This document shows positions 10,607 through 60,520 of a DNA stretch of 64,000 bases, in pieces. The notes under the pieces are model-generated. The model saw only the letters and a program-made list of their open reading frames with translations. It was not told the origin of the DNA and searched no databases. Both the position numbers and the translations under genes were made by a program. The stretch is from Rhizobium leguminosarum bv. viciae USDA 2370 (lineage in GTDB: Bacteria > Pseudomonadota > Alphaproteobacteria > Rhizobiales > Rhizobiaceae): positions 175,676-239,675 of the forward strand of contig NZ_MRDL01000036.1 in assembly GCF_002008365.1 (NCBI RefSeq), in the 5' to 3' direction. Each line of letters opens with the position of its first letter. The stretch's first letter is position 1.

Positions 10607-11935
10607 TCAGGTGTTGGTCACATCCTGATAGAGATTGGTGCCGATGCCAGTATAGGTAAACCCGTATTTGCGGACCTCGTCGCTGCGGTAGATATTGCGC
10701 AGATCGACCAGGATCGGAGCGCGCATCGACTGCTTCAGGCGGTTGAAATCGAGCGCGCGGAACTGGTTCCATTCGGTGACGATGACAAGCGCATCCGCAC
10801 CAGCCGCCGCTTCGTAGGGTCCGCTCGCATATTCGATGTTCTCGATCACCTTGCGGGCGTTTTCCATGCCCTCGGGGTCGTAGCCGACCACTTGCGCGCC
10901 GTTGTCCTGCAGAGTCTGGATGACTGCGATTGCCGGGCTGTCGCGCATGTCATCGGTGTTCGGCTTGAAGGTCAGCCCGAGGATTGCGATCTTCTTGCCG
11001 CGAATGTCTCCGCCGACGGCCGAAATGACTTTGCGTCCCATCGCCCGCTTGCGGTTGTCATTGATCGAGATCGTCGTCTCGATGAGACGCATCGGCGCAT
11101 CGTAATCCTGCGCCGTCTTGGCAAGAGCTAGCGTATCTTTGGGGAAGCACGAGCCGCCGTAACCCGGACCGGCATGCAGGAACTTGGAGCCGATACGGCC
11201 ATCGAGACCGATCCCGCGCGAAACGTCCTGAACGTTTGCGTCGACCCGTTCGCAGAGATCGGCGATCTCGTTGATGAAGGTGATCTTCATCGCGAGAAAA
11301 GCATTGGCCGCATATTTGATCAGTTCCGAGGTGCGGCGGGTGGTGAAGACCAGGGGTGCCTGGTTGAGGTAAAGCGGGCGATAGACCTCGGTCATGGTTT
11401 CGCGTGCCCGGTCGTCGTTCAGCCCGACGACGATACGGTCAGGACGCTTGAAATCCTCGATGGCGGCGCCTTCGCGCAGGAATTCGGGATTGGAAACGAC
11501 GGCGACATCCGCCGTGGGATTGGTTTCGCGCATGATGCGCTCGACTTCGTCTCCCGTGCCGACCGGCACCGTCGACTTGGTGACGATAACAGTGAAGCCT
11601 TCCACATAGGTGGCAATCTCGCGGGCAGCGGCGTAGACATAGGAGAGATCCGCATGGCCGTCGCCGCGCCTGGAGGGCGTGCCGACGGCGATGAACACGA
11701 CGTCAGCACTGCGGACACTTTCGCCGACATCCGTCGAAAATGACAGCCGGCCGGTGCTGGTGTTTTCAGCGACCAATTGCTCCAGACCCGGCTCGTAGAT
11801 CGGAATGCGGCCTTCGCGAAGCGCTTCGATCTTACTCAGATCCTTGTCGACGCAGATGACGTCGTGGCCGAAATCCGCAAAGCAAACGCCTGAAACGAGG
11901 CCGACATAGCCTGATCCAATCATCGTGATGCGCAT
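10607..11935 (-). CDS. exo5: UDP-glucose 6-dehydrogenase
   Basis: This enzyme oxidises UDP-glucose to UDP-glucuronate with two NAD+, supplying the glucuronic acid of the acidic EPS and other glycans. The 442-aa length is standard. Visible motifs are the NAD-binding MIGSGYVGLVSG (5-16), FIAVGTPS, the hinge-region KYAANAFLAMKITFINE, and catalytic C263 in GGSCFPKD. GAGGGAAAT precedes the ATG. The orthologue is called exo5 in R. leguminosarum and rkpK in Sinorhizobium. It is a single-gene unit with its own terminator and lies beside the pss export genes. Two users of its product, LspL and PssDE, are encoded in this window. Confidence 0.93.
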   Translation of the reverse strand: MRITMIGSGYVGLVSGVCFADFGHDVICVDKDLSKIEALREGRIPIYEPGLEQLVAENTSTGRLSFSTDVGESVRSADVVFIAVGTPSRRGDGHADLSYVYAAAREIATYVEGFTVIVTKSTVPVGTGDEVERIMRETNPTADVAVVSNPEFLREGAAIEDFKRPDRIVVGLNDDRARETMTEVYRPLYLNQAPLVFTTRRTSELIKYAANAFLAMKITFINEIADLCERVDANVQDVSRGIGLDGRIGSKFLHAGPGYGGSCFPKDTLALAKTAQDYDAPMRLIETTISINDNRKRAMGRKVISAVGGDIRGKKIAILGLTFKPNTDDMRDSPAIAVIQTLQDNGAQVVGYDPEGMENARKVIENIEYASGPYEAAAGADALVIVTEWNQFRALDFNRLKQSMRAPILVDLRNIYRSDEVRKYGFTYTGIGTNLYQDVTNT

Positions 11936-48204: not shown

Positions 48205-49329
48205 TCAAGCCTCCTGCAATGAGGTCGCCGCAGCGCATTCGTCAGACCGATCGATCTCGGATAAGCGGCTGAGCAATGTCTTCGTTCTGAAGCGAGACCA
48301 ACCGCCGACCAAGGGCAGAAGCGGGTCTATCTCTTCGAATTTCCTCAGATTCTTTTGCTTTTGCTCCCTCGCTGGCCAGATTTTCGACAACGCCCTGCGT
48401 GCGGCTCTGTCAGATTTTGTAAAGATCAATCTGGCGAGGACGCCGGAGGCGACCATAGGGCTATGATGATAAATGTGTTTGAGCGAGGTCGCAGCGCTGG
48501 GCCAATCTTTCAGAGCGGCAAATTTTGAAAATGCATAAAGATGCGCCGACGCGCGGGCGCAGCTGACGACAAAAGCCGGAAGCTGGGGATTGCGAGCGAT
48601 ACATCGCTCGGTCACCGCCAGAAGCGATCGCGCCATCCGCGACCTGTCTGAAGACATGGCTGCGGAATGCGAGCGATAGCCCACCAGACCCAACGGCACC
48701 GTCTCGATCTTGAAATGTTCAGCGGTGCGGAGTTCGAAATCGAAATCCTCGCATCCTCCAATCCCCTTTCTGGCATAGCTTGAATCGTAGCCGCCGATCT
48801 TGTCGACGACAGCGCGGCGAACCATGAAGCCGCTGCCATTGCCGACGAAGCGGAATACGAGATGACGGTTGAGAATGCTGTCCCGGGCGTTCAGCGACGA
48901 ACCGGATCTCGTGCAATATCCTTCGGTATCGATGAAGCGGTGAAGGGCATACACCGCGCCCCAGGCGTCCGGCAGGGGATGGAGCGCCGCAAGCATTCTT
49001 TCGACATAGGTCGGATGCCATATGTCGTCCGCATCGAGGAAGGCGATATAGGCGGATTTCGATGCTTTTATTCCGCTATTGCGAGCCGCAGCGACGCCAC
49101 GGTTTTCGGTCGACAGAATCCGGATCCTTGGGTCGCCCGCGGCGAAACGGCGACAGATCGAGACCGTGTCGTCCGTCGAACCGTCGTCGATGATGACGAT
49201 CTCCAGCGCCTTGTGGGTCTGGTTGCTGACCGACTGGAGCGTGTGGGCAAGGTAGCGGCTGGCGTTATAAGCAGGGATAATAACGGCCACTTGAATGCGG
49301 GATGTGGTTGGCATCTCCATGGCTGTCAC
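48205..49329 (-). CDS. GT2-family glycosyltransferase, last gene of second glycan operon
   Basis: The 374-aa protein has an N-terminal GT-A domain (VAVIIPAYNASRYLAHTLQSVSNQ, IIDDGSTDDT, NRGVAAARNSGI, FLDADDIWHP), acidic GGCEDFDFELR further on and a C-terminal helical part of about 130 residues. The start is a GTG overlapping the ABC gene stop (GTGA), or an ATG three codons later. It is closely similar in plan to the 51073-52149 product, suggesting duplication. It adds a sugar to the molecule exported by the adjacent ABC protein (inference). Confidence 0.83.
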   Translation of the reverse strand: MTAMEMPTTSRIQVAVIIPAYNASRYLAHTLQSVSNQTHKALEIVIIDDGSTDDTVSICRRFAAGDPRIRILSTENRGVAAARNSGIKASKSAYIAFLDADDIWHPTYVERMLAALHPLPDAWGAVYALHRFIDTEGYCTRSGSSLNARDSILNRHLVFRFVGNGSGFMVRRAVVDKIGGYDSSYARKGIGGCEDFDFELRTAEHFKIETVPLGLVGYRSHSAAMSSDRSRMARSLLAVTERCIARNPQLPAFVVSCARASAHLYAFSKFAALKDWPSAATSLKHIYHHSPMVASGVLARLIFTKSDRAARRALSKIWPAREQKQKNLRKFEEIDPLLPLVGGWSRFRTKTLLSRLSEIDRSDECAAATSLQEA

Positions 49330-51080
49330 CCGAGCTTGGATGTGGGGGTGGGGGGGCGGAGATCGATCCGGTTCTTCATCAGCCTGGCCACAGCGGGCCG
49401 ATGGCTAACGACGATCAGCGTTCTGCCGGCGTCTTCTTTCATTGCCGAAAACACCCGCATCTCGGTCTCTTCGTCGAGTGCGCTTGTTGCTTCGTCCAGC
49501 AGCAGGATCTGAGGCCGGCCGGCGAGCGCACGCGCCAGACCTATGCGCTGCCTTTGTCCGCCCGAAAGCCGGATCGCCTCGTCGCCCAGCCATTCATCAA
49601 AGCCATACGGCAGATCTTTGATGAATTCCGTTGCGCAGGCCACATCGGCCGCCCAGCGGATATCCTGCTCCGAGATATCGCGACGAAACCGGATGTTGTC
49701 GAGGACCGTGCCTTCCATCAGTTCAACATCCTGGCCCGACACGGAGAGCAGTTGCAGCCAGCTGGACCGGTCGATGGTTGTCAGATCCCTGCCGTCGACC
49801 GTGATCAGGCCCCGGGTCGGCGGGTTGAGATCGAGAATCATGTTGAGGATGGTGGTTTTGCCGGAGCCACTCGGCCCCGTCAGAGCCGTCGTCTCGCCTG
49901 CTCTGATTGCGAAGCTGAGGTCGTCAACCGCCGGGGCGTTCGATCGCTCATAGGCGAACGAGACGTTGTGGAAGACAATCGCCTCCGCCAGGCGGCTTAC
50001 CTTCTCCCCTCGCGATGCCTGCTTGATGTCATCCTTCTCTGCAAGCAGGGCCAGGACGTTTTGCAGGGACGCTTCCATCTCGTAAAGGCTGAGAATCTGG
50101 GAATCAAATCCCTTGATATGCGGCTGAAGCCTGTAGAGAAGGATCGTGGCCGAGAGCGCCGCCTTGAAATCGACCGGCAGGAATTCGGAGGACAGAATGA
50201 TCGTCAGGATGACCCCGAAGGTCAGCATTTCGCTGAGAAGCGAGGTTATCGCTCCCATCCCATCCGACCGGCGCCAGGTCTGGCCGACGTCGTTGGAAAG
50301 CGCCTCGAAGAGTTGTTGATGGCGCTTTTCCATGCCGAAGCTTTTGACGGCCTTCAAAGTCTGCAGCGTTGTCCAGCTCAACTGTGTCAAGGCTTCCACC
50401 GCAGCCAGTGCAGAGGCACCGAGACGGCGGTAGGCACCGGCAAAGAAACCCAATACAAAATTATGGATGAAGCCGAAGGCGAGAGCCAGCAACGCGATCG
50501 GCCAGGCCATGACCAGCATGCCGACGCCGAAAATCACAATCGTCCCGAAATTCACCCCCAGACGTACCAGGCTGGCATGCGCCGACGACACCGCATAGGA
50601 TTCGGTCGCGATGACGTTGATCAGGTCGCTGCGCTCATAGTCTTGAAAGCGCTGGAAGGGTATGGTCAAGACCTTGGCGTAGAGGCGGTCTCGCATGCGG
50701 TCGCTAATTCGGTGGTTCACTGCGCTTGCAATCAGCGAATTGGCGCATCCCAATAAAATCCGGAACAGGATGGAGCCGATGAGGATGCCGATCAGGACAG
50801 GCTTCGAAAGACTGAGGTCGATGCCGCCGAAAATCGCTGGAAGCCATGCGACGGCGGAGCCGGAAACGGGACCTTGCTGCCCGAGAAGAAAGACGAGGCT
50901 GACCAGAAAGGTGATGCCGACCATTTCCGAGAACCCTGTGAGAATTCCCAGGATGATCATCACCGTCATCTTGAGCCGCAGCGCCGGTACGAGTTGCCGA
51001 AGCTCGCGAAACCGAGATGCAACGACCAGGTTGTAGGCTCTTGCGGGCATAGCGGAAGGTGGCTTTCGAAACCTATTCAT
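49326..51080 (-). CDS. MsbA-type ABC exporter (permease fused to ATPase)
   Basis: The 584-aa half-transporter has six membrane helices in residues about 35-310, then an ATPase with Walker A LTGPSGSGKTT, Q-loop, signature LSGGQRQRIGLARAL, Walker B LLLDEATSALDEE and H-loop VSHRP. It resembles lipid- or glycolipid-exporting ABC proteins (MsbA, PglK-like). It overlaps neighbouring glycosyltransferase genes on both sides (8 and 4 bases), so it probably flips a lipid-linked or lipid-attached glycan made by this operon. Confidence 0.87.
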   Translation of the reverse strand: MNRFRKPPSAMPARAYNLVVASRFRELRQLVPALRLKMTVMIILGILTGFSEMVGITFLVSLVFLLGQQGPVSGSAVAWLPAIFGGIDLSLSKPVLIGILIGSILFRILLGCANSLIASAVNHRISDRMRDRLYAKVLTIPFQRFQDYERSDLINVIATESYAVSSAHASLVRLGVNFGTIVIFGVGMLVMAWPIALLALAFGFIHNFVLGFFAGAYRRLGASALAAVEALTQLSWTTLQTLKAVKSFGMEKRHQQLFEALSNDVGQTWRRSDGMGAITSLLSEMLTFGVILTIILSSEFLPVDFKAALSATILLYRLQPHIKGFDSQILSLYEMEASLQNVLALLAEKDDIKQASRGEKVSRLAEAIVFHNVSFAYERSNAPAVDDLSFAIRAGETTALTGPSGSGKTTILNMILDLNPPTRGLITVDGRDLTTIDRSSWLQLLSVSGQDVELMEGTVLDNIRFRRDISEQDIRWAADVACATEFIKDLPYGFDEWLGDEAIRLSGGQRQRIGLARALAGRPQILLLDEATSALDEETEMRVFSAMKEDAGRTLIVVSHRPAVARLMKNRIDLRPPTPTSKLG

Positions 51081-52149
51081 TGTCGACCATCCGCGAAGAG
51101 GTCAGGCTTATTGTCTCCCTGGCAGGCGTGGCCGCGAAACGATCGCTGAATGCTGTTCCTGGTTGCGGCAGGGGGGCGCTCCCAAGGCGGATTTTCGGCC
51201 GCGCCGAAGACTTGCCGAGGGCGCGCTTTGCCGTCCGCAGGACGCGTTTTGCTTGGCGCCAGCCCTGCTGTACTCCATGGACGACGAGGCGCGAGGAATA
51301 TTTTCTGACCATCATCGGCGCCAGCTGTTTGACCTGGGCAAAGTCATTGCCCAGAAACGCCTTTTTGAAATACCAGCGTGCGGTGTTGAACTCGGCTGTC
51401 TGGATGTCGCGCGTAAACTGCGGATAGCGCGTGATGATCGGGGCCATGACCAGGGCGTGGGATTTCAGCATCCTGTAGGCGTTGCTGGACATATTTCCCT
51501 TGGTAAAGCGATAACCGGTCAGGAAATCGGGAACCAACACGAAGGGCAAGGTTTCGGCCAAGGACAGATAAAGTTTCAGATCCTCACATCCCTCGGCGCC
51601 GTTGTCGCGCAGGCTGGCGTCATAGCCGCCGCAGCGAAGAATGTCCGCCCGCGGCATCAAGGGTGTGCTGCCATTGCCGATGAAATTTTCCCGCAACAGC
51701 GGTTCGAAGATAGTCCCTTGATGCAGGACTGGTCGCGAATGACCGAAAATGATGCCGTTCTCGTCGATCGCCGCATACCAATTGTAAGCGACTCCGCGTC
51801 CGTCCGGAAATTTCCCTAGCGCCTCGAGCTGGAGTTCGATTTTGCGAGGGTGCCATAAATCATCGGCATCGACGGGGGCTATATAAAGGCCGCGCGCGTC
51901 CTCGATGCCGTGGTTGCGCGCGCGGGCAACGCCGCCATTCTCCTGGCGGAGAACACGGACACGGTGATCGGTCAGGCTGTAGTCGCGAGCAAGATCGAAG
52001 GTACGGTCCCGCGATCCGTCGTCGACCACAAGGATTTCGAGCTTGTCATAGGACTGGCTGGAGACGCTTTGCAATGTTTCGGCAAGCGTCTTTTCGGCGT
52101 TGTAAGCCGGTATGACGACGGTGATGAGAGGGGCCGCAACGCCAGTCAT
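51073..52149 (-). CDS. GT2-family glycosyltransferase
   Basis: The 358-aa product has ITVVIPAYNAEKTLAETLQSVSSQ, LVVDDGSRDRT, NGGVARARNHGIE and PVDADDLWHP, a standard GT-A set, with EGCEDLKLYLSLAE holding a likely catalytic acid, then a basic C-terminal region. Similar in plan to the transferase at the end of the operon. It lies 7 bases after the large fused gene and overlaps the ABC gene. Specificity unknown. Confidence 0.83.
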   Translation of the reverse strand: MTGVAAPLITVVIPAYNAEKTLAETLQSVSSQSYDKLEILVVDDGSRDRTFDLARDYSLTDHRVRVLRQENGGVARARNHGIEDARGLYIAPVDADDLWHPRKIELQLEALGKFPDGRGVAYNWYAAIDENGIIFGHSRPVLHQGTIFEPLLRENFIGNGSTPLMPRADILRCGGYDASLRDNGAEGCEDLKLYLSLAETLPFVLVPDFLTGYRFTKGNMSSNAYRMLKSHALVMAPIITRYPQFTRDIQTAEFNTARWYFKKAFLGNDFAQVKQLAPMMVRKYSSRLVVHGVQQGWRQAKRVLRTAKRALGKSSARPKIRLGSAPLPQPGTAFSDRFAATPARETISLTSSRMVDNE

Positions 52150-52156
52150 GGTATAG

Positions 52157-55100
52157 TCATCCGATATAAGCTCCCGGCAGGCCCATCAGTTCAGGGAACG
52201 CTTCAAGAGGACGATCGCCGCGGACTTCGAGGCGTGGCAGACCGAAGAGATTATCGGAAAATGTGGCTTTTGCCGGTCGTGTCGTGAAGCCGATCCCGTA
52301 GCCGGCAAGCGCCAGAATGCCCGGGACCCTGAAGTCTGTCCCGCCATAGGGAAGTGCGATCGATTCTGCGGAGCTGCCCAGCCGGCTTTGCAGCGCATTG
52401 CGCGATCGCATGGCTTCGTCCAGCAGGGCTTCGTTGTCCATCGCACTGGCTGGTGTGTGGGATGCGAGGTGGGAGCCGAAGCTGATGCCCTTCTGGTGCA
52501 ACTCCTGAATATGCGACCACGACATCAGCGGTGCAGGCTCTCCATAGGCAGCATCCCAATCTGACCGACCGCCGACTTTATCGGTCACGACGAATACGTC
52601 AGCGCTGAAATCATTCTCGGCAAGGATCGGGAAGGCCTCCTCCAGGAAATCCGAGTAGGCATCGTCGAAAGTCAGCATGACGGGCCGGCCCTGGATCGGC
52701 TTGCCGCTGCGCAGAAGCCCCGCCAGGGTCTGCGCCGTCACCGTGTAATAACCCTGTCGCCGAAGGAACTGCATCTGCTTGCGGAAGATCTCCGGCGGCG
52801 TGCGGAAGCGCTGGAGTGCCGCCGGTCCTTCCTCTGCGATCCTGTGATACATAAGGATGGGAACCGAGGTCGTGACCTCCGTCGTCCATGCCGCCCCACG
52901 CTCAGTACCCGCCGGGCCCCAGATGATGTGCTTTGCCACATCCGCGTCCAGCGGAGTTCCATGCCGCTCGACCCGCAGGACAGGATCTGCCACCGGACCT
53001 TTCCTAAACCGGTGGATGGCGTAAAGTTCGGTTTCGATCGTCTCTTCCAAGGCCAGATCAGCTTGTGCGGCTAACAGCTGTTTGATCGTCCCGACACCGA
53101 AAGGATTGTCCCAATCGAAGCCGGTCCGGTTGGGTTCGTCCCGGCGGATATGTGCGTGGGCAGTGATCAGGTAGCCGTTCGGCTTCACCGCTGCGGCCAT
53201 CTTCTGACAGACCGCCGCAAGCATCTCCTCGTCTTTCATGTAGTAAAGGACTTCGGAGCAGACGAGGAGGTCCTGTTCGGGCGGAACGTCGCTCTTGACG
53301 AAGTCAAGCACGCGAAGCTCGACGTTGCGATGGTCGCGGCAGCGCTCGACAGCCCGGTCGATTGCCCGCTGGGAAATATCCGTGGCCGTCAGCTGGCCGA
53401 CCTTTTGCGCCAGCTTCTCGGTAAAGATCCCCTCGGCGCAGGCGAGCTCGAGGGCCTTCTCGATCCCTTCCGGGATCAGGCTCAACGTCTGCGCATATTT
53501 AACCTGCTCGTAGACGGAGACGTAATTCCATGGATCCGGGCGTTCAAAGATATGCTCCCAGTACTCTTCTTCCGACTGAACCGGGGCAGCCCCCTTTTTT
53601 TCGTAGGGCCGCAGCCGAGTGGGATTTCGGAACCGTGGAGCCAGACCGCGTTGGAGATTTTGCTGGATGTCGGACAATCGGGCGTCGTTGTCTTCTCTGT
53701 CGCTTGGCGCGCAGGCAAGAAGAGCGTTGCGTCCGATACGCACCAAAATTCGGTCGAGACGTCCTCGCCGCTGGCCATTCCGGATGATCAGCCCGCCGAA
53801 GGCTCTGTAGCCGCGCAATGCCTCCCTTGTCCACGAACTCATATAGACGAGGGTGGGCGGCGTCTGCAGATGTTCTTCTGCCTGCATCTCATGCATGATC
53901 AGCCTGATCTGTGCCCGGATCGAAAGATCGCCCCAGAATGGCCCGACAAAGGAGCTGACATGTTGTCCGCCGGACAAGGCGTGCATGATGAGCGTGTCGG
54001 CTGGCTCGGCCTTGGGGATCCGCGAAAGCGTTTCGAGCGCGGCACTGACCACCTGGACATTGCCAAGCGTGAATGACCGCAAAGGGTTTGCGGCGGATAT
54101 GTGCCAAGAGGCGGCCTCAATGATCTTGCGCCCAGTGCCGGGTAAGGAATGTTCCTGAATCAGCTGGATGAGCAAAAGGAACGTCGGCCGCCATTTGTCG
54201 AGCACATCAATGAGATCGTCGGCGCGATCCGTAGAGAGCCCGGTCTGCAGGCCATGCAGGATTACCCCGGCAAGAAAGTTTTCGTAGCCCGCGGCGTCCG
54301 GCATCTCAGGCAGAAGCGCTGCAAGGGCTGCAACATCCAAAGTCGGGTCGAGCTTGGCCGCGACGACCCAGGCTAGCATGCGCAGTTGGCTGACCGGGGG
54401 TGTGATCCAGCCTGTCTCCGGCCCCTCGGCCGACAAGCCTTGCTGCGTCTGCAGCGCTTGCGCCTTCGATGTCACGCGAATGGCGTCACGCACCATTTTG
54501 GTCGGATCGCCGGAGAGCGAGTCCGCCTTCATGCGATAGAAAGCGAGGCATTGGTCGACGCGACGAAATTCGGCGCCGGAAAAGGCCATGCGAAGCCAGA
54601 GATCCCAATCCTCGCAGGTCTGCAAGGTCTCATCCATGCCTCCAACCAGCTCAAAAAGGCTTCTGGGAAAGACAACCGTATGGATGGCGAGTGCACAAAA
54701 AGAGGAGAACTCACGCTTGGCGACGTCTCCCGTCAAGATGGGAGGTTGTTCTACCTGCATAAGCCTGCCGTCCGGGGCGACGCGGCGGAAGGCGCAATAG
54801 GCGATGGCTGCTGGAGATGAATTCTCCGCCACTGGCTGCATGTTTTCGATGAAGGTCGGATCCAGCCAGTCGTCGGCATCCAGCATGCAGAGCAGGGGCG
54901 CGGCTGCCAGTCTTGCGGCATGGTTTCGCGCGGCGGCCGCACCCGCATTCGGCTGACGGGCGGGGAGAATGCGGCTGTCCGTGTTTGCGATGCTCTCGAG
55001 AACCTCCCAGGTGCGGTCGGTCGAACCGTCATCGACCACGACGGCCTGCCAGTTCGATCGCGACTGCTGCTGCAGGCTGGCAAGACATTCGGCAAGCGTA

Positions 55101-55159
55101 TCGGCTGCGTTATAGGCGGGGATGAGGAATGAAACGTCAGGCGTTGCGGCGATCACCAT
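52157..55159 (-). CDS. Tri-modular GT2 / NodS-like methyltransferase / NodB-like deacetylase
   Basis: The 1000-aa protein has three recognisable modules. Residues about 8-225 are a GT-A transferase (VSFLIPAYNAADTLAECLASLQ, VVDDGSTDRT, MLDADDWLDP, TCEDWDLWLRM). A 300-residue linker without a clear domain follows. Residues about 530-720 resemble NodS-type SAM methyltransferases (DPWNYVSVYEQVKYAQTL, ALELACAEGIFTEKLA, LLVCSEVLYYM). Residues about 765-985 form a polysaccharide deacetylase (MYHRIAEEG, TFDDAY with D832/D833, SHLASHTP with H897/H901). These are the three enzyme types that build and edit Nod factors, here in one chain, though the transferase is not NodC-like in membrane topology. The start at 55159 has GAAGAGG 6 nt upstream and overlaps the previous gene by 7 bases. 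It may add a sugar, methylate it and deacetylate it. Confidence 0.85.
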   Translation of the reverse strand: MVIAATPDVSFLIPAYNAADTLAECLASLQQQSRSNWQAVVVDDGSTDRTWEVLESIANTDSRILPARQPNAGAAAARNHAARLAAAPLLCMLDADDWLDPTFIENMQPVAENSSPAAIAYCAFRRVAPDGRLMQVEQPPILTGDVAKREFSSFCALAIHTVVFPRSLFELVGGMDETLQTCEDWDLWLRMAFSGAEFRRVDQCLAFYRMKADSLSGDPTKMVRDAIRVTSKAQALQTQQGLSAEGPETGWITPPVSQLRMLAWVVAAKLDPTLDVAALAALLPEMPDAAGYENFLAGVILHGLQTGLSTDRADDLIDVLDKWRPTFLLLIQLIQEHSLPGTGRKIIEAASWHISAANPLRSFTLGNVQVVSAALETLSRIPKAEPADTLIMHALSGGQHVSSFVGPFWGDLSIRAQIRLIMHEMQAEEHLQTPPTLVYMSSWTREALRGYRAFGGLIIRNGQRRGRLDRILVRIGRNALLACAPSDREDNDARLSDIQQNLQRGLAPRFRNPTRLRPYEKKGAAPVQSEEEYWEHIFERPDPWNYVSVYEQVKYAQTLSLIPEGIEKALELACAEGIFTEKLAQKVGQLTATDISQRAIDRAVERCRDHRNVELRVLDFVKSDVPPEQDLLVCSEVLYYMKDEEMLAAVCQKMAAAVKPNGYLITAHAHIRRDEPNRTGFDWDNPFGVGTIKQLLAAQADLALEETIETELYAIHRFRKGPVADPVLRVERHGTPLDADVAKHIIWGPAGTERGAAWTTEVTTSVPILMYHRIAEEGPAALQRFRTPPEIFRKQMQFLRRQGYYTVTAQTLAGLLRSGKPIQGRPVMLTFDDAYSDFLEEAFPILAENDFSADVFVVTDKVGGRSDWDAAYGEPAPLMSWSHIQELHQKGISFGSHLASHTPASAMDNEALLDEAMRSRNALQSRLGSSAESIALPYGGTDFRVPGILALAGYGIGFTTRPAKATFSDNLFGLPRLEVRGDRPLEAFPELMGLPGAYIG

Positions 55160-56331
55160 GCGGGCCTCTTCCATCGCCGCAGAACGTAGAGAGCGCCATT
55201 TACGCTTCCGAGCATCTCCTGCTTCAGGAAGACATCGTGCGACGTCGTGCCTTTGCGAAGCCGTCTTCGGATCCTTCCGGCGTAATATTTCGGAAACGAG
55301 AGCAGGATGCGCCGCAGATTGGCGTTATTTCCGGTGTTCTGATATTGGACCAGCAGGGCTGCGACATGGCCACTCATATATTGGTAGATCTGTTTGGCAA
55401 GCCCCTTCATGTCCTTGCGATGAAAGTGCCAGGCGACCGCCGTTGGCTCGTAGCGGCAGACATGGCCATGATGGAGCAGCCGGTTCCAGTATTCGGAATC
55501 GCCTGAGCATCCGGCAGCGCCCATGTCCAGGCGGACATCGAACAGGCCGATCTCGTCGAAGACCTTGCGGCGGATGGCCTGACTTGCGCCGGCTCCTATC
55601 GTCCAGACCGGGGCGCCGTAACGTGTATCCCTGGTATAGAAGTCCTGGTTGAAATCCTGCCGCAGATAGCCCCGGCCGAAACTCCAATGCTTTTCGAAGA
55701 TAAACTGCGCCGGCGTTGCAAGTTCTCCGGGAAGGACCAACCCGGTGACGCAGGCGATCTCAGGCAGATCGAACCCCTTCATCAGGTTCTCCAGCCACCG
55801 CTCATGGAGGACGACGTCATCGTCCGTAAAAGCGACGAATTCGGTTCTCGCCGCACGAACCGCCGCATTGCGCGCATAATCCAGCCCGACCCGATCTTCA
55901 CGGACATAGGTTGCGCCCGATTCCTCTACCACGCGACGCGTTGCCTCGCCTGCAGAGGCATTATCCACCACGATGATCTCGACGGGGCTGAGAGACTGTT
56001 TGGGGATCGAGGCCAGGCAACGGCGTAGTTCCTCTGGCCGGTCCTTCGTGCAAATCAGAATGCTGACGTCGCGGTTGCCCACAGGGGTTTGCGCGACTTG
56101 ACGCGCATGCTCGAGCGTCTCGGGCCGCACGACACGCTCAGCGAGTGCCGCCGCCGTCTCGGGCCTTTCGATATAGGCTTGTCCTACGGGAAGACCATCC
56201 GACAGAAAGACCACGAGCCCATCGGAGACCGGGGGCGCAACGGCGAGGTGAGAGGTGGCGAGATCAAGATAGTGAATCGGTATGGGAAAACTTATATCCT
56301 TCAGATCGGACGGAATTGGTTCTCGCATCAT
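55153..56331 (-). CDS. GT2-family glycosyltransferase with N-terminal extension
   Basis: The product is about 392 aa. A roughly 85-residue N-terminal region of unknown role precedes a GT-A domain (VSILICTKDRPEELRRCLASIPKQ, VVDNASAGEA, GLDYARNAAVRAA, FTDDDVVLHERWLENL, GAGASQAIRRKVF, GDSEYWNRLLHHG). The ending is basic and amphipathic. The start is one of two adjacent ATGs (56331 or 56328) behind GAGAGAG. It overlaps the tri-modular gene. It resembles transferases of surface polysaccharide clusters; donor and acceptor unknown. Confidence 0.82.
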   Translation of the reverse strand: MMREPIPSDLKDISFPIPIHYLDLATSHLAVAPPVSDGLVVFLSDGLPVGQAYIERPETAAALAERVVRPETLEHARQVAQTPVGNRDVSILICTKDRPEELRRCLASIPKQSLSPVEIIVVDNASAGEATRRVVEESGATYVREDRVGLDYARNAAVRAARTEFVAFTDDDVVLHERWLENLMKGFDLPEIACVTGLVLPGELATPAQFIFEKHWSFGRGYLRQDFNQDFYTRDTRYGAPVWTIGAGASQAIRRKVFDEIGLFDVRLDMGAAGCSGDSEYWNRLLHHGHVCRYEPTAVAWHFHRKDMKGLAKQIYQYMSGHVAALLVQYQNTGNNANLRRILLSFPKYYAGRIRRRLRKGTTSHDVFLKQEMLGSVNGALYVLRRWKRPAW

Positions 56332-56401
56332 TACTCTCTCAATCGCACCGTGAACATACGCCAACTGCATCCAGGACGCGAGCCTCGAAAGTCATCGTGG
56401 T

Positions 56402-57358
56402 TTATTCGGCCGCGTGCGCCTTCATTTGTTCCCTGAACCAATTGAGCGTCATCGCCACGCCCTGTTCGTAGGTGATTTTGCACGACCACTCGGGCATGAC
56501 ATAGTGCGCGTTGGTCAGGTCCGGCCGTCTGTTCGTGGGGTCCTGCGGCGGTGACGGCTCGAAGACGATCGGCACGCCACCAACGAGTTTGGAGACATAT
56601 TGGGCGACCTCGAGAACCGAAATCTCGCGATCATTGCCGACGTTCAGAGGCCCCTTATAGTCGGTTTCATTTATCCAGAAATATCGCGCGAAACCATCGA
56701 CAACGTCATCGACATAACCCCAGCTGCGTGACTGAAGGCCGTCGCCGAACACGGTAATCGGGCGACCCGAAAGCGCCTGAGTGATGAAGTTGGAGACCGC
56801 GCGACCATCGTCGGAACGTGTCCGGGGTCCATAGATATTGAAGGGGCGAACGATCTTGACGTCGAGCCCTTGGGTACGCTGCATCTCGAACAGCAGCGAC
56901 TCCGTGCACCTTTTGCTCTCGTCGTAGGATGAGCGCGGTCCGGTGCAGTCGACCTGACCCTTGTAGGATTCCGGCTGCGGCGACACCAGAGGATCGCCAT
57001 AGACTTCGGAAGAAGAGGTGAAACCGAAACGTCCGCCCTTCTTCAGCAAGTCGAGCAACCGGAATGCGCCGAGAAGATTGGCCGAGATCGTTCTCTTCGG
57101 CTCCTTCATGTACCATGGCGGCGATGCGGGGGATGCAAGGTGATAGATTTCGTCGAATTTATCCGAGGTCTGCAGTGTCTCGACGTCGGATTTCACGAAG
57201 TGGAAACGGGGGTCCCGGATGTGGGCGATATTTTCGAAAAGCCCGGTCCAGAGGTTGTCAACAACGACCAGCTTCTGAATGTCCGTCCTCAGCAAAAGTC
57301 GATCACACATGTGGGATCCGATGAAGCCAGCCCCGCCAGAAATCAATACGCTCTTCAT
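56402..57358 (-). CDS. UDP-glucuronate decarboxylase (UDP-xylose synthase)-like SDR
   Basis: The 318-aa extended SDR has the NAD motif GGAGFIGSH (8-16), the UXS-like HLASPASPPWY, TSSSEVYGDP, the catalytic RSSYDESKR and VRPFNIYGPR with the arginine loop FGDGLQSRSWGYVDD. The ASPASP and YDESKR features are those of UDP-glucuronate decarboxylases and related dehydratases, so UDP-xylose or a 4-keto sugar is the likely product; the first position of YDESKR rather than YDEGKR leaves some doubt. GAGGCGCAAAGC precedes the ATG. First gene of the second glycan operon; the next starts 70 bases later. UDP-GlcA from Exo5 would be its substrate. Confidence 0.83.
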   Translation of the reverse strand: MKSVLISGGAGFIGSHMCDRLLLRTDIQKLVVVDNLWTGLFENIAHIRDPRFHFVKSDVETLQTSDKFDEIYHLASPASPPWYMKEPKRTISANLLGAFRLLDLLKKGGRFGFTSSSEVYGDPLVSPQPESYKGQVDCTGPRSSYDESKRCTESLLFEMQRTQGLDVKIVRPFNIYGPRTRSDDGRAVSNFITQALSGRPITVFGDGLQSRSWGYVDDVVDGFARYFWINETDYKGPLNVGNDREISVLEVAQYVSKLVGGVPIVFEPSPPQDPTNRRPDLTNAHYVMPEWSCKITYEQGVAMTLNWFREQMKAHAAE

Positions 57359-57700
57359 TGCTTTGCGCCTCGTGACTTGAGATTAAGCTGCTTGTCTATT
57401 AGCATTGCCTGTAATGCATGACAATTACTTAGAAAAGTTCTAAGAAATACTCGCGTATTAATGTTAATCGTTAAATCTACCTACTTTAAGGCGACGTGTG
57501 TCGCTGCCGATGCTGCGCTCGATAACGGTCGGCCGCGCCGGGCCGGATGTTACAGGTGATCGTTGCCCGCCCAATCTCGACCATCCGTGCCATGAGACGG
57601 CCGCCACCATCAACGGTTCGATCGAAGGAATCGGCATGGTATCGAGAACCTCTCCAACGAGTTCCGGATCCAGGGAGATGAGGTTGCCTGTGGAAACGGG

Positions 57701-57860
57701 CATCCGAATGTGTGTTATATTTTCGAAAGGTCCGGTGCAAAGATTGTCAACAACAACCAGTTTCTGGGTATCTTTTTCCAAGTAGAAGTCGTCAGGTAAA
57801 TGCGATCCAATGAAGTCAACGCAGTTTCTCACATCGTCTCGCTTCGTTACTTGAGAATAT
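57701..57860 (-). pseudogene. Truncated duplicate of the UXS-like gene's 5' end
   Basis: Reading the minus strand, the stretch DFIGSHLPDDF...KLVVVDNLCTGPFENITHIR matches, with few changes, residues 11-51 of the adjacent UXS-like protein (GFIGSH...KLVVVDNLWTGLFENIAHIR). The similarity continues upstream of the start codon (ctcaagt.acga.gcg in both). The start is ruined (ATG TGA) and the frame continues into unrelated sequence. It is a decayed partial tandem copy about 350 bases upstream of the intact gene. Confidence 0.8.
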
Positions 57861-58204
57861 ATTATTGTTATTACAGTGATCGAGGGTTTTGTATGGGCAC
57901 GAAGTCCGGGGTAGGTCGGACTTTGGTCTGAGTTTCGGGTGCGCGGAAACGGGGGGCTTCGTAGTTCGACCGTCCCAACGACGGCGCCCGCGCGCCTTAA
58001 ATACGAACTCATTGGCGTACACGTCGACATGCTTGTCGCGCAGGCGGTGATATGACCAGCGCGAACCGGATAAGCCATATTTCGAAAGAGTTCATTCGTC
58101 TGGAGAAGGAAACGGGAGTAGAATAGCGGAGGCCGGAGGAGTGTTCCCGTCGACCGAAGGATCCGCTAAGCGTGGCTTTCGTCACCTCGCTGGAGAGGAT
58201 GACC
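57861..58204. other. Intergenic region before the cyclase gene
   Basis: About 340 bases with no supported gene. It holds the 5' part of the decayed duplicate's neighbourhood and the presumed promoter of the plus-strand cyclase gene. I see no clear regulatory site. Confidence 0.4.
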
Positions 58205-60520
58205 ATGGGAGACGATCATGCCGAGCGGCGGCTGGTTGCTATTCTCGCCGTCGATATCGTTGGTTATTCAAGACTTATCGAGGATGACGAGGCCGGTACG
58301 CTGGCCGCGATGAGGGCATTGCGCTCCGAAGTGTTCGACCCACTGCTCGCGGAATATCACGGACGCACAGTGAAGCTCATGGGCGATGGCGCGATCGTGG
58401 AATTTGGCTCCGTCGTGGATGCTGTCTTATGTGCGGTTGCCCTGCAAAGGCAGGTTGCAGCACGGCAAGTGGATATCCTGCCCCAACACCGGCTTCTCTT
58501 CCGCATGGGCGTCAACCTGGGCGACGTCGTCGTGGAGGGCGATGATTTGCTGGGCGATGGGGTCAACGTCGCTGCTCGCCTGGAGCAGATATGTGAGTCC
58601 GGAGGGCTTTTTGTATCCGGCACTGCTTTCGATCATTTGCAAGGCAAGCTCGAACTGCCGCTTGAATTTATTGGCGAGCAGCATGTCAAAAACATCGCGC
58701 GCCCCGTACGCACCTATCGCGTGCTGTTCGATGGAAACGTTCCTCGCTGGCAGTTCAAAATCCAGCGTCTTCGCAGTTGGGGACCGCTCGCGGCGGTGGC
58801 TCTGGTGCTGGTGGCTGCCTTCGTCGCGATATGGCTGGGTCCATGGACGACCAGTGCGGAAACGGCATCGATCGCACGCATGGCACTCCCGCTGCCTGAC
58901 AAGCCGTCAATTGCCGTCCTGCCCTTCGACAACCTCAGTTCCGATCCGGAACAGGCCTATTTCGCCGACGGCATGACGGAAGATCTGATCACAGACCTTT
59001 CGAAGCTGTCCAGCATCTTTGTTATCGCTCGAAACTCCACCTTCGCCTACAAGGGCAAGCCCATCAAAGTTCAGCAGGTGGCCGAGGAACTCGGGGTCCG
59101 TTATATCCTTGAAGGCAGCGTGCGCCGCCAGGGCAACCAGGTCCGCATCAACGCACAGCTCATAGACGCGCTCGGCGGCCATCATCTATGGGCTGACCGC
59201 TATGACGGCGCGATGAACGAGATTTTTACGCTTCAGGATAAGGTCATCGGCGAGATCGTGTCTGCGCTCACCGTCAAGTTCACAATGGCGGAGCGATCTC
59301 AGTCCGAGCAGGCGGAGACGAATAGCCCGCAGGCTTACGACGCTTTGCTGCAAGGCTGGGATCACCTGCGCCACGACAGCGAGAATGAAACGCTCAAGGC
59401 AATTCCCTTTTTCGAAAGGGCGATCGAGCTCGACCCCGATTACAGCCGCGCTCATGCGGCGCTCGCTTCGGCGAATTGGCGGATTGCCGTTTCCAATTGG
59501 GAGGCCGCCAACCTTGGCTTCGAGAGGGCGATGGAACGTGTGGATCGGCACCTGGCTCTTGCGATTCGAAAGCCCAATTCGCTTGCCTATGCGATCTCCG
59601 CTGAGGTGCTGGCAAGGCAGGGCCGGTATGCTGACGCCTTTGCCAAAATCAGTCGTGCCATGGAACTCGATTCCAATGATCCCGAAAATCACCTCAGCAA
59701 GGCACGCATTTTGAACGCAACGGGCCAGGCTCCGGAAGCCGAACGCGAAGTGCAACGGGCTATGCGTGTCGACCCGCAATATCCGCCGAGCTATCTCAGG
59801 GTTCTTGCGATTTCACAGTTCCACCAGGAGAAATATGAGGAGGCGGTGAAGAACCTCGAACTGCTGGTGATCAGGCAATCAGACGTCAGTGAAGACTACG
59901 CCACGCTGGTGTCGAGCTTCGGCCACCTCGGGCGGACGGACGGCGTTCAGGAAAACATCGAAAAATACAACGCGCTCGCGGTTCCCGCCGGCTACTCGCC
60001 GCTGACGGTGCAGGAACTGGGATGGTACTGGTACGGCGACATTTTCAACTACGATTCGACCTATCGCGAGCGCCTGAAGGAGGGCTTGCGCAAAGCCGGC
60101 GTGCCGGAGGGAGCGGGCACAGATATTTCCTATGACGAATACGCTCGCCTGATCGGCAAAAGCAACGGGGAATACAATATCAAGGGAGCCACTGAAATAG
60201 ACGCCCCGACGGCCAAGCGGCTGCACGACCGCGGCGTCAAGCTCGTCGATGTGCGCACCGCTCTGAGCTTTGGTCGCGGGCATGCGCCGGGAGCCATCAA
60301 CCTATCGGTCGTGGAGGTTTTGGCAAGGGACACGCTGTCGAAGGCCGTGAGCAGGGAGGAGGAAGTGATCTTCTCATGCCATGGCAAATATTGCGGCGAT
60401 TCCGCCTACGCATCGGCCAAAGCCTTGGTATGGGGGTTTAAGAATGTCTACCACTTTGCCGGTGGCTTTCCCGCGTGGGAGGATGCTCACTACCCCATAG
60501 AGACCGCTCCGGGACATTAA
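58205..60520 (+). CDS. Class III nucleotide cyclase fused to TolB-like, TPR and rhodanese domains
   Basis: The 771-aa protein has a class III cyclase domain at about residues 8-170 (LVAILAVDIVGYSRLIEDD, KLMGDGAIVEFGS, GVNVAARLEQICES). Both metal aspartates and the N...R pair are present, so it should be active on ATP or GTP. One membrane helix lies at about 200-218 (GPLAAVALVLVAAFVAIWLG), then a TolB-N-like region (SIAVLPFDNLSSDPEQAYF, 240-370) and TPR repeats (about 400-600). A C-terminal rhodanese (about 655-760) has VDVRTALSFGRGHAPGAIN and the loop CHGKYC starting at C725. The start at 58205 follows GGAGAGG. A sulfurtransferase or redox sensor on the far side of the membrane controlling cAMP is conceivable (inference). 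Confidence 0.88.
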   Translation: MGDDHAERRLVAILAVDIVGYSRLIEDDEAGTLAAMRALRSEVFDPLLAEYHGRTVKLMGDGAIVEFGSVVDAVLCAVALQRQVAARQVDILPQHRLLFRMGVNLGDVVVEGDDLLGDGVNVAARLEQICESGGLFVSGTAFDHLQGKLELPLEFIGEQHVKNIARPVRTYRVLFDGNVPRWQFKIQRLRSWGPLAAVALVLVAAFVAIWLGPWTTSAETASIARMALPLPDKPSIAVLPFDNLSSDPEQAYFADGMTEDLITDLSKLSSIFVIARNSTFAYKGKPIKVQQVAEELGVRYILEGSVRRQGNQVRINAQLIDALGGHHLWADRYDGAMNEIFTLQDKVIGEIVSALTVKFTMAERSQSEQAETNSPQAYDALLQGWDHLRHDSENETLKAIPFFERAIELDPDYSRAHAALASANWRIAVSNWEAANLGFERAMERVDRHLALAIRKPNSLAYAISAEVLARQGRYADAFAKISRAMELDSNDPENHLSKARILNATGQAPEAEREVQRAMRVDPQYPPSYLRVLAISQFHQEKYEEAVKNLELLVIRQSDVSEDYATLVSSFGHLGRTDGVQENIEKYNALAVPAGYSPLTVQELGWYWYGDIFNYDSTYRERLKEGLRKAGVPEGAGTDISYDEYARLIGKSNGEYNIKGATEIDAPTAKRLHDRGVKLVDVRTALSFGRGHAPGAINLSVVEVLARDTLSKAVSREEEVIFSCHGKYCGDSAYASAKALVWGFKNVYHFAGGFPAWEDAHYPIETAPGH

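Follow-up and report, generated by a model that had tools for sequence, protein, structure and literature searches.

Within a 64,000-nucleotide stretch of the genome of Rhizobium leguminosarum bv. viciae USDA 2370 (contig NZ_MRDL01000036.1, positions 175,676 to 239,675; here called the window), one gene encodes a family 2 glycosyltransferase (GT2), a linker domain, a NodS-type methyltransferase and a CE4-type polysaccharide deacetylase in a single chain. This trifunctional fusion is real and is conserved in Rhizobium. As judged from its sequence and those of its neighbors, there is about an even chance that the protein works in the cytoplasm as an assembly line for the product of a surface-glycan operon, and would add a sugar, take off an acetyl group and methylate, probably at the freed amine, before the product is exported. 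The chemistry would be like that of NodB plus NodS but lie outside Nod-factor synthesis, and the protein probably helps to build and modify an exported surface sugar and not the nodulation signal that its parts resemble.

Three modules in one conserved chain

The gene (52157-55174, minus strand) is a single unbroken open reading frame (ORF) of 1005 codons counted from the upstream ATG; an in-frame ATG at 55159, five codons downstream, corresponds to the RefSeq start of the orthologue on plasmid pSK03. An earlier note on this DNA, made from the letters alone, had proposed three modules with intact motifs in one chain, the methyltransferase being NodS-like, and this was borne out, as Glycos_transf_2 (PF00535, residues 15-142, 106.3 bits), NodS (PF05401, residues 544-674, 73.7 bits, cut-off 24 bits) and Polysacc_deac_1 (PF01522, residues 828-959, 65.4 bits) all exceed their Pfam cut-offs. 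In an alignment of 75 rows, consisting of the window's protein and 74 relatives (the six kept relatives that do not encode every module in a single frame were excluded), the acidic motif of the GT2 module is represented by D99 and D102, each retained in 74 of 75 rows, and residues E576, A580, E581 and G582 of the S-adenosylmethionine (SAM) loop as well as D599 are invariant. The deacetylase residues D837, D838, H902 and H906, which we take to form the Asp-His-His metal site of CE4 enzymes, are likewise present in all 75 rows, and together with the Pfam score they place this module in the CE4 family. The arginine that we take to be canonical for CE4 motif 3 was not found, residues 940-944 reading ALPYG or ALPFG in the Rhizobium rows aligned; R981 of the deacetylase is invariant (75/75). 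As PgaB shows WPYG in the alignment, the motif-3 arginine varies within the CE4 family.

An AlphaFold model of the full protein (45 rows) had a mean predicted local distance difference test score (pLDDT) of 85.7 and a predicted template modelling score of 0.73. The glycosyltransferase (GT) part of the model resembles the GT2 domain of chondroitin polymerase K4CP (2z86; Z 27.2, root-mean-square deviation (rmsd) 4.0, 251 residues aligned) and of heparosan synthase 2 (8vh7; Z 25.9); these are two-GT polymerases, whereas here one GT is combined with a methyltransferase and a deacetylase. The methyltransferase part superimposes on NodS (3ofk; Z 22.8, rmsd 2.3, 185 aligned). For the deacetylase part, the nearest structures are PplD (6dq3; Z 30.8, rmsd 2.1, 222 aligned), Bacillus enzymes, IcaB (4wcj; Z 27.1) and PgaB (4f9d; Z 25.8); the TFDD-type motif aligns with those of PplD, IcaB and PgaB and, unlike these three, the deacetylase studied here is fused to a GT and a methyltransferase. 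The best 19-residue hydrophobicity mean of the trifunctional protein is 1.54, versus 2.44 in the ATP-binding cassette (ABC) protein of the same operon, and this lack of a strongly hydrophobic segment is consistent with a cytoplasmic location.

The linker, which the earlier note had described as having no recognised fold, still fits that description. Residues 222-512, modelled alone from 39 rows (mean pLDDT 84.9), were predicted to consist of helices followed by a small sheet and further helices. No convincing fold match was obtained, the best values (Foldseek E 0.08, VIA Z 5.3) both being at noise level, and there was no Pfam match in the window's linker and only weak ones in a few of the remaining 38 members, two of which gave the lowest E value (0.0063); the weak outcome of the fold search is no proof of a new fold. 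A domain common to the linker and the N-terminus of the neighboring glycosyltransferase GT_C had been suspected by eye and was unsupported (hhalign probability 0.2, E 0.3). With up to six candidates scored per genome, a search with just the linker gave matches at E<=1e-4 in 2 of 385 class genomes, both containing the trifunctional gene, and the domain appears to be confined to the trifunctional family in the genomes sampled. It stays joined to methyltransferase and deacetylase in proteins that lack the GT, and is tentatively read as a scaffold.

A scan of named genomes with the methyltransferase part yielded 160 relatives, the best 80 of which were kept for counts. GT, linker, methyltransferase and deacetylase lie in one frame in 74 of these 80 loci, and the fusion is therefore not due to chance or to an assembly artefact; neither a loss of the catalytic residues nor a gene split in all relatives, which the earlier note had named as evidence against its proposal, was encountered. 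Loci with the complete fusion include records from Rhizobium, Mesorhizobium, Bradyrhizobium, Chthonobacter, Neoroseomonas, Methylococcaceae and Synechococcus. Within the genus, the full-length protein occurs at 62-100% identity in 11 of 37 genomes, the window's own counted, and two others carry at the same chromosomal place an intact homologue of 31% identity (G005) and a split one (G007). Ratios of nonsynonymous to synonymous substitution rates (dN/dS) calculated per module were below 1 in all 34 unsaturated values of 36. The 19 values obtained from the window and five relatives ranged from 0.085 to 0.369 and the 15 from four other pairs from 0.11 to 0.56, each set having one additional, saturated value. 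A combined methyltransferase-deacetylase search (E<=1e-20, with up to five candidates scored per family genome and four per class genome) covered the two modules together in 7 of 297 genomes of the family and in 2 of 385 of the class, each figure including the window's own genome.

Six plasmid records matched, three covering at least 80% of the query, and three of the six, including those from the cyanobacterium Gloeothece and from Sulfitobacter, are annotated 'trifunctional glycosyltransferase/class I SAM-dependent methyltransferase/polysaccharide deacetylase', so the architecture is already named in RefSeq (WP_094088823.1, WP_243254667.1, WP_013334356.1). An annotated RefSeq orthologue with 83.0% identity over 100% of the query belongs to the same architecture, and WP_094088823.1 shares both the three-module name and the six-gene order of the window's operon; the entry is an annotation name, and the records seen hold no tested function. 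No functional study dealing with the architecture was found in the literature searched, as judged by titles and the beginnings of abstracts, and the accessible part of PMC13390465 describes separate proteins. A search for N-methyl sugars in rhizobial lipopolysaccharide (LPS) turned up only work on Aeromonas. What is new beyond the RefSeq name is the linker domain, an apparent single origin, the linkage to an operon and the natural versions without a GT. Viral relatives (8 loci) matched only in the GT part, at 24-31% identity, and were set aside.

Likeness to Nod-factor enzymes

The earlier note had also likened the glycosyltransferase to NodC and the deacetylase to NodB, and neither likeness could be upheld. 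With the NodC model (TIGR04242, cut-off 550) the protein reaches 34.3 bits, less than with several other models of GT2 enzymes (EpsD 88.1, TuaG 85.6 and PgaC 60.5 bits, all under their cut-offs), and the NodB model (TIGR04243, cut-off 240) has no match on the trifunctional gene at E<=1e-3. The genome's own NodB, located on another contig, reaches 343.6 bits, two weaker places scoring 82.5 and 22.3 bits. The deacetylase module also stays far below the cut-offs of the PgaB (63.7 vs 321.9) and IcaB (41.5 vs 248.35) models.

Specific likeness to a Nod enzyme is confined to the methyltransferase module, which resembles NodS but forms a group separate from the true NodS proteins. With the NodS model NF041650 it scores 81.3 and 85.3 bits against a cut-off of 300, and the broad PF05401 finds matches over its cut-off in 6 of 14 control genomes as well and is thus not specific to nodulation. 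In a tree of 48 methyltransferase rows, the 22 fused forms make up one side of a branch (94/96, just under the starred level), and 17 rows, consisting of 13 NodS and 4 nod-cluster sequences, group together (100/100) apart from them. The N-terminal DPW and SAM-loop stretches of NodS (3ofk/3ofj), the N-methyltransferase of Nod-factor synthesis, align with those of the fused methyltransferase, which differs in its place in the tree, in its score under the NodS cut-off and in being joined to other enzymes.

Twelve loci with a NodS-type methyltransferase outside the trifunctional architecture were picked from the hits of the methyltransferase-deacetylase search, not drawn at random. In four of them (L219, L220, L223, L226) deacetylase, GT2 and methyltransferase are adjacent as separate genes in a nod-like order, deacetylase-GT-methyltransferase, whereas the order in the trifunctional chain is GT-methyltransferase-deacetylase; their other neighbors are presumably nodA, nodU, nodI and nodJ. 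Five more (L221, L222, L227, L229, L230) encode within the same 12 kb a PHPDDE motif, which we take to be PIG-L-like. With a deacetylase or this motif in 9 of 12 loci, methyltransferases of the NodS-like type often travel with sugar deacetylases, and it is mainly from this association that the fused methyltransferase is read as acting on the amine that the deacetylase uncovers. Another grouping of the same kinds of partner is seen at L104 (4899-7316), where a NodS-like methyltransferase is fused behind what looks by eye like a flippase-like membrane protein, and the frame that follows downstream matches a deacetylase.

The operon and its surroundings

The operon to which the earlier note had assigned the gene was recovered, with GT2 enzymes and an exporter: EPI, GT_C, the trifunctional gene, GT_B, the ABC gene and GT_A follow each other on one strand with overlaps or short gaps, and this order recurs in the genus.

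Table 1. Features of the trifunctional gene, its operon and a neighboring gene (positions in the window).
Feature	Position	Strand	Remarks
Trifunctional gene (GT2, linker domain, NodS-type methyltransferase, CE4-type deacetylase)	52157..55174	-	1005 aa; alternative start 55159
GT2 module	54455..55141	-	residues 12-240; PF00535
Linker domain	53639..54442	-	residues 245-512; conserved; without Pfam or convincing PDB match
NodS-type methyltransferase module	52994..53572	-	residues 535-727; PF05401
SAM loop LELACAEG	53429..53452	-	residues 575-582
Polysaccharide deacetylase module	52178..52879	-	residues 766-999; PF01522
Deacetylase motif TFDDA	52658..52672	-	residues 835-839
Deacetylase HLASH	52457..52471	-	residues 902-906; presumed metal-site histidines
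EPI, UDP-xylose-synthase-like sugar-nucleotide enzyme	56402..57358	-	best PDB match UXS1
GT_C, GT2 upstream of trifunctional gene, overlapping it	55153..56370	-	syntenic in relatives
GT_B, GT2 downstream of trifunctional gene	51073..52149	-	Pfam
ABC exporter, membrane and ATPase parts in one chain	49326..51080	-	PF00664, PF00005
GT_A, last GT2 of operon	48205..49329	-	Pfam
UDP-glucose dehydrogenase-family gene	10610..11935	-	PF03721, PF00984, PF03720

EPI is closest to UDP-xylose synthase, matching UXS1 in the PDB with 259.8 bits and the best other entry, a GalE, with 120.5 bits. For GT_C an MftF-like score of 129 bits (cut-off 280) was obtained. The ABC protein scores 277.6 bits with the HepA, 249 with the MsbA and 189.8 with the PglK model of NCBIfam, all under cut-off, and its best PDB matches are ABCB1-type transporters (272 bits), followed by MsbA (171 bits). 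At E<=1e-100, 12 of 61 genomes contain EPI, and each of these also has a homologue of the trifunctional gene; in a thirteenth carrier of that gene (G034) the contig ends just past GT_C.

Among the loci listed, the order GT_C-trifunctional gene-GT_B-ABC also occurs in Bradyrhizobium (L142), Mesorhizobium (L156, L100), Methylococcaceae (L140) and Synechococcus (L160), with other neighbors varying beyond this block. In Sulfitobacter a GT accompanies the trifunctional gene and the ABC gene is on the opposite strand, and in Gloeothece a GT adjoins it and the ABC gene lies some 4.5 kb away. An ABC homologue and a GT_B-like GT2 were found near the gene in 43 of the 80 kept loci, truncated loci counted (41/42 outside Mesorhizobium and 2/38 within it), a count in which other GT2 enzymes of the operon can also score as GT_B. 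Mesorhizobium loci without nearby operon partners, L163 and L154 among them, still have dN/dS values below 1 for every module in the pairs that were compared.

Several further observations concern the operon and its place. At the same chromosomal place, G007 (L031) and G005 (L032) contain, as judged by eye, ORFs like an ABC-2 permease and a separate ATPase instead of a one-chain exporter, next to trifunctional homologues of 31-38% identity, intact in G005 and split in G007; what lies between EPI and tfuA has the look of an exchangeable glycan cassette. In the window, the ORF at 57464-58078 (minus strand) is 69% identical to EPI over 39 residues (E 3.8e-14) and resembles the relic of an EPI duplication. 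Plasmid pSK03 of R. leguminosarum BIHB 1148 (L233, NZ_CP022567.1) carries the complete operon together with tfuA-ycaO, so this block can sit on a plasmid. The window's own pair of YcaO and TfuA genes (PF02624, PF07812; 44581-46478, plus strand) is on the strand opposite to the operon and is found near it in most but not all genus carriers. A functional link between operon and ycaO-tfuA is unsupported, since G019 has a close tfuA orthologue on another contig and G027 and G033 have only relatives of 57-58% identity elsewhere.

A Pss-I-type exopolysaccharide region (10610-38000) lies near the operon and holds genes for a UDP-glucose dehydrogenase, Wzy-, Wzz-, Wzx- and Alg14/PssD-like proteins, ABC proteins and GTs; its UDP-glucose dehydrogenase-family gene could supply UDP-glucuronate to EPI. 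On the other side, between EPI and a DUF882 gene, one ORF (58172-60517, plus strand) combines adenylate/guanylate cyclase, tetratricopeptide repeat and rhodanese domains, and it is not listed at the corresponding place in R. johnstonii 3841. The chromosome record of strain 3841 contains the trifunctional orthologue at about 3,822,527-3,825,526, a tRNA-Arg gene at 3,817,118-3,817,194 and, at 3,850,916, an Alg14-family match that we take to be pssD. According to the accessible part of the genome paper, this strain has a 52-kb island (RL3627-3670), among several that abut a tRNA gene (PMC1557990), and pssD is RL3654 (PMC11103875, as far as accessible); these coordinates would place the operon at the end of the island next to the tRNA gene. 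No tRNA gene was found in the window or in the next 19 kb of the USDA 2370 genome. RL3631 is named GlcB in the portion available of PMC6421345, and the trifunctional operon is not discussed in the accessible parts of PMC4495286, PMC11103875, PMC6421345, PMC3333776 and PMC1557990.

A putative route to a methylated surface sugar

In the reading favored here, the GT2 module would add a sugar onto a growing carrier-bound oligosaccharide, the CE4-type module would deacetylate the nitrogen of an amino sugar, and methylation of the product, most likely at the freed amine, would fall to the NodS-type module, with the linker domain keeping the modules together. GT_A, GT_B and GT_C would supply the remaining sugars, one probably xylose derived from EPI, and the ABC protein would carry the product across the inner membrane. 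What the analysis establishes are the modules, conserved residues, predicted folds, gene order and co-occurrence; the substrate, the order of the steps, N- over O-methylation and the exported product are inferred. A deacetylated, methylated amino sugar, as the earlier note had proposed, is a plausible product. It may also be, in a bolder form that is put forward tentatively, that a chemistry like that of Nod factors arose outside nodulation, that one protein transfers the amino sugar, deacetylates and N-methylates it, with a scaffold linker that retains the reactive free amine within the enzyme, and that surface glycans with N-methylated amino sugars made in this way occur in rhizobia, cyanobacteria and marine roseobacters.

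Several observations weigh against the assembly-line interpretation. The likeness to NodS is no proof of N-methylation, PplD, PgaB and IcaB are extracytoplasmic enzymes, and three of the twelve stand-alone loci (L224, L225, L228) have neither a deacetylase nor a PHPDDE motif within 12 kb. A search of about 8 kb around the gene did not find the partners in 36 of 38 Mesorhizobium loci. Five loci of this genus (L146, L155, L162, L164, L186) encode linker, methyltransferase and deacetylase only: homology to the query L163 begins at its residue 250, the boundary between GT and linker, in each of them, and no GT match to this query was detected in these loci. G007 splits the gene, with most of the linker staying with the GT, and L147, which starts at a contig edge, has a deacetylase match without the middle part. 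Coupling in a single chain is thus not strictly required.

The closest competitor accepts the same glycan operon and takes the methyltransferase for an O-methyltransferase and the deacetylase for an enzyme acting on a different residue, so that the two would not work in tandem on one amine. This is a possibility of some substance, if a less likely one, as the methyltransferase also matches general SAM methyltransferases, stays below the NodS cut-off (81-85 vs 300 bits) and forms its own group beside NodS in the tree; however, its nearest fold and family are those of an N-methyltransferase, and methyltransferase and deacetylase stay together in the five loci without a GT. It is unlikely, in turn, that the operon makes a lipid-linked oligosaccharide for decoration of proteins or of the LPS core, with a PglK-like flippase and a trifunctional enzyme that modifies one sugar. 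The exporter-type ABC protein in one chain, with MsbA and PglK scores under the cut-offs, and the lack of Wzx-, Wzy- or Wzz-type Pfam matches in the six operon proteins would suit such a pathway, but the neighboring Wzx-, Wzy- and Wzz-like proteins of the Pss-I-type region could serve as well.

An enzyme set of the Nod-factor type, working on chitin oligomers in symbiosis, is highly improbable, even though the methyltransferase is of NodS type (PF05401) and the genome has a NodB of its own. That true NodB lies on another contig and the NodB model misses the trifunctional gene, the NodC score (34.3 vs 550) is low, and the architecture is also present in Gloeothece, Sulfitobacter, Synechococcus, Neoroseomonas and Methylococcaceae records. 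Moreover, 5 of the 11 full-length carriers in the genus possess a separate true NodS and the other 6, including USDA 2370, have none over the cut-off. Membership in Nod-factor synthesis was rejected in view of the missed NodB, NodC and NodS cut-offs and the wide taxonomic spread.

As the laboratory strain R. johnstonii 3841 carries the trifunctional gene, the chemistry proposed for the surface-glycan enzyme is directly testable. In the part available of PMC11103875, exopolysaccharide genes including pssD (RL3654), pssO and lspL, and also RL3667, are tied to rhizosphere growth and root colonisation, and the operon sits close to exopolysaccharide genes of this kind. If the favored interpretation is true, deacetylation followed by NodS-type methylation would be a wider bacterial route to methylated surface amino sugars, and not one specific to symbiosis signalling.

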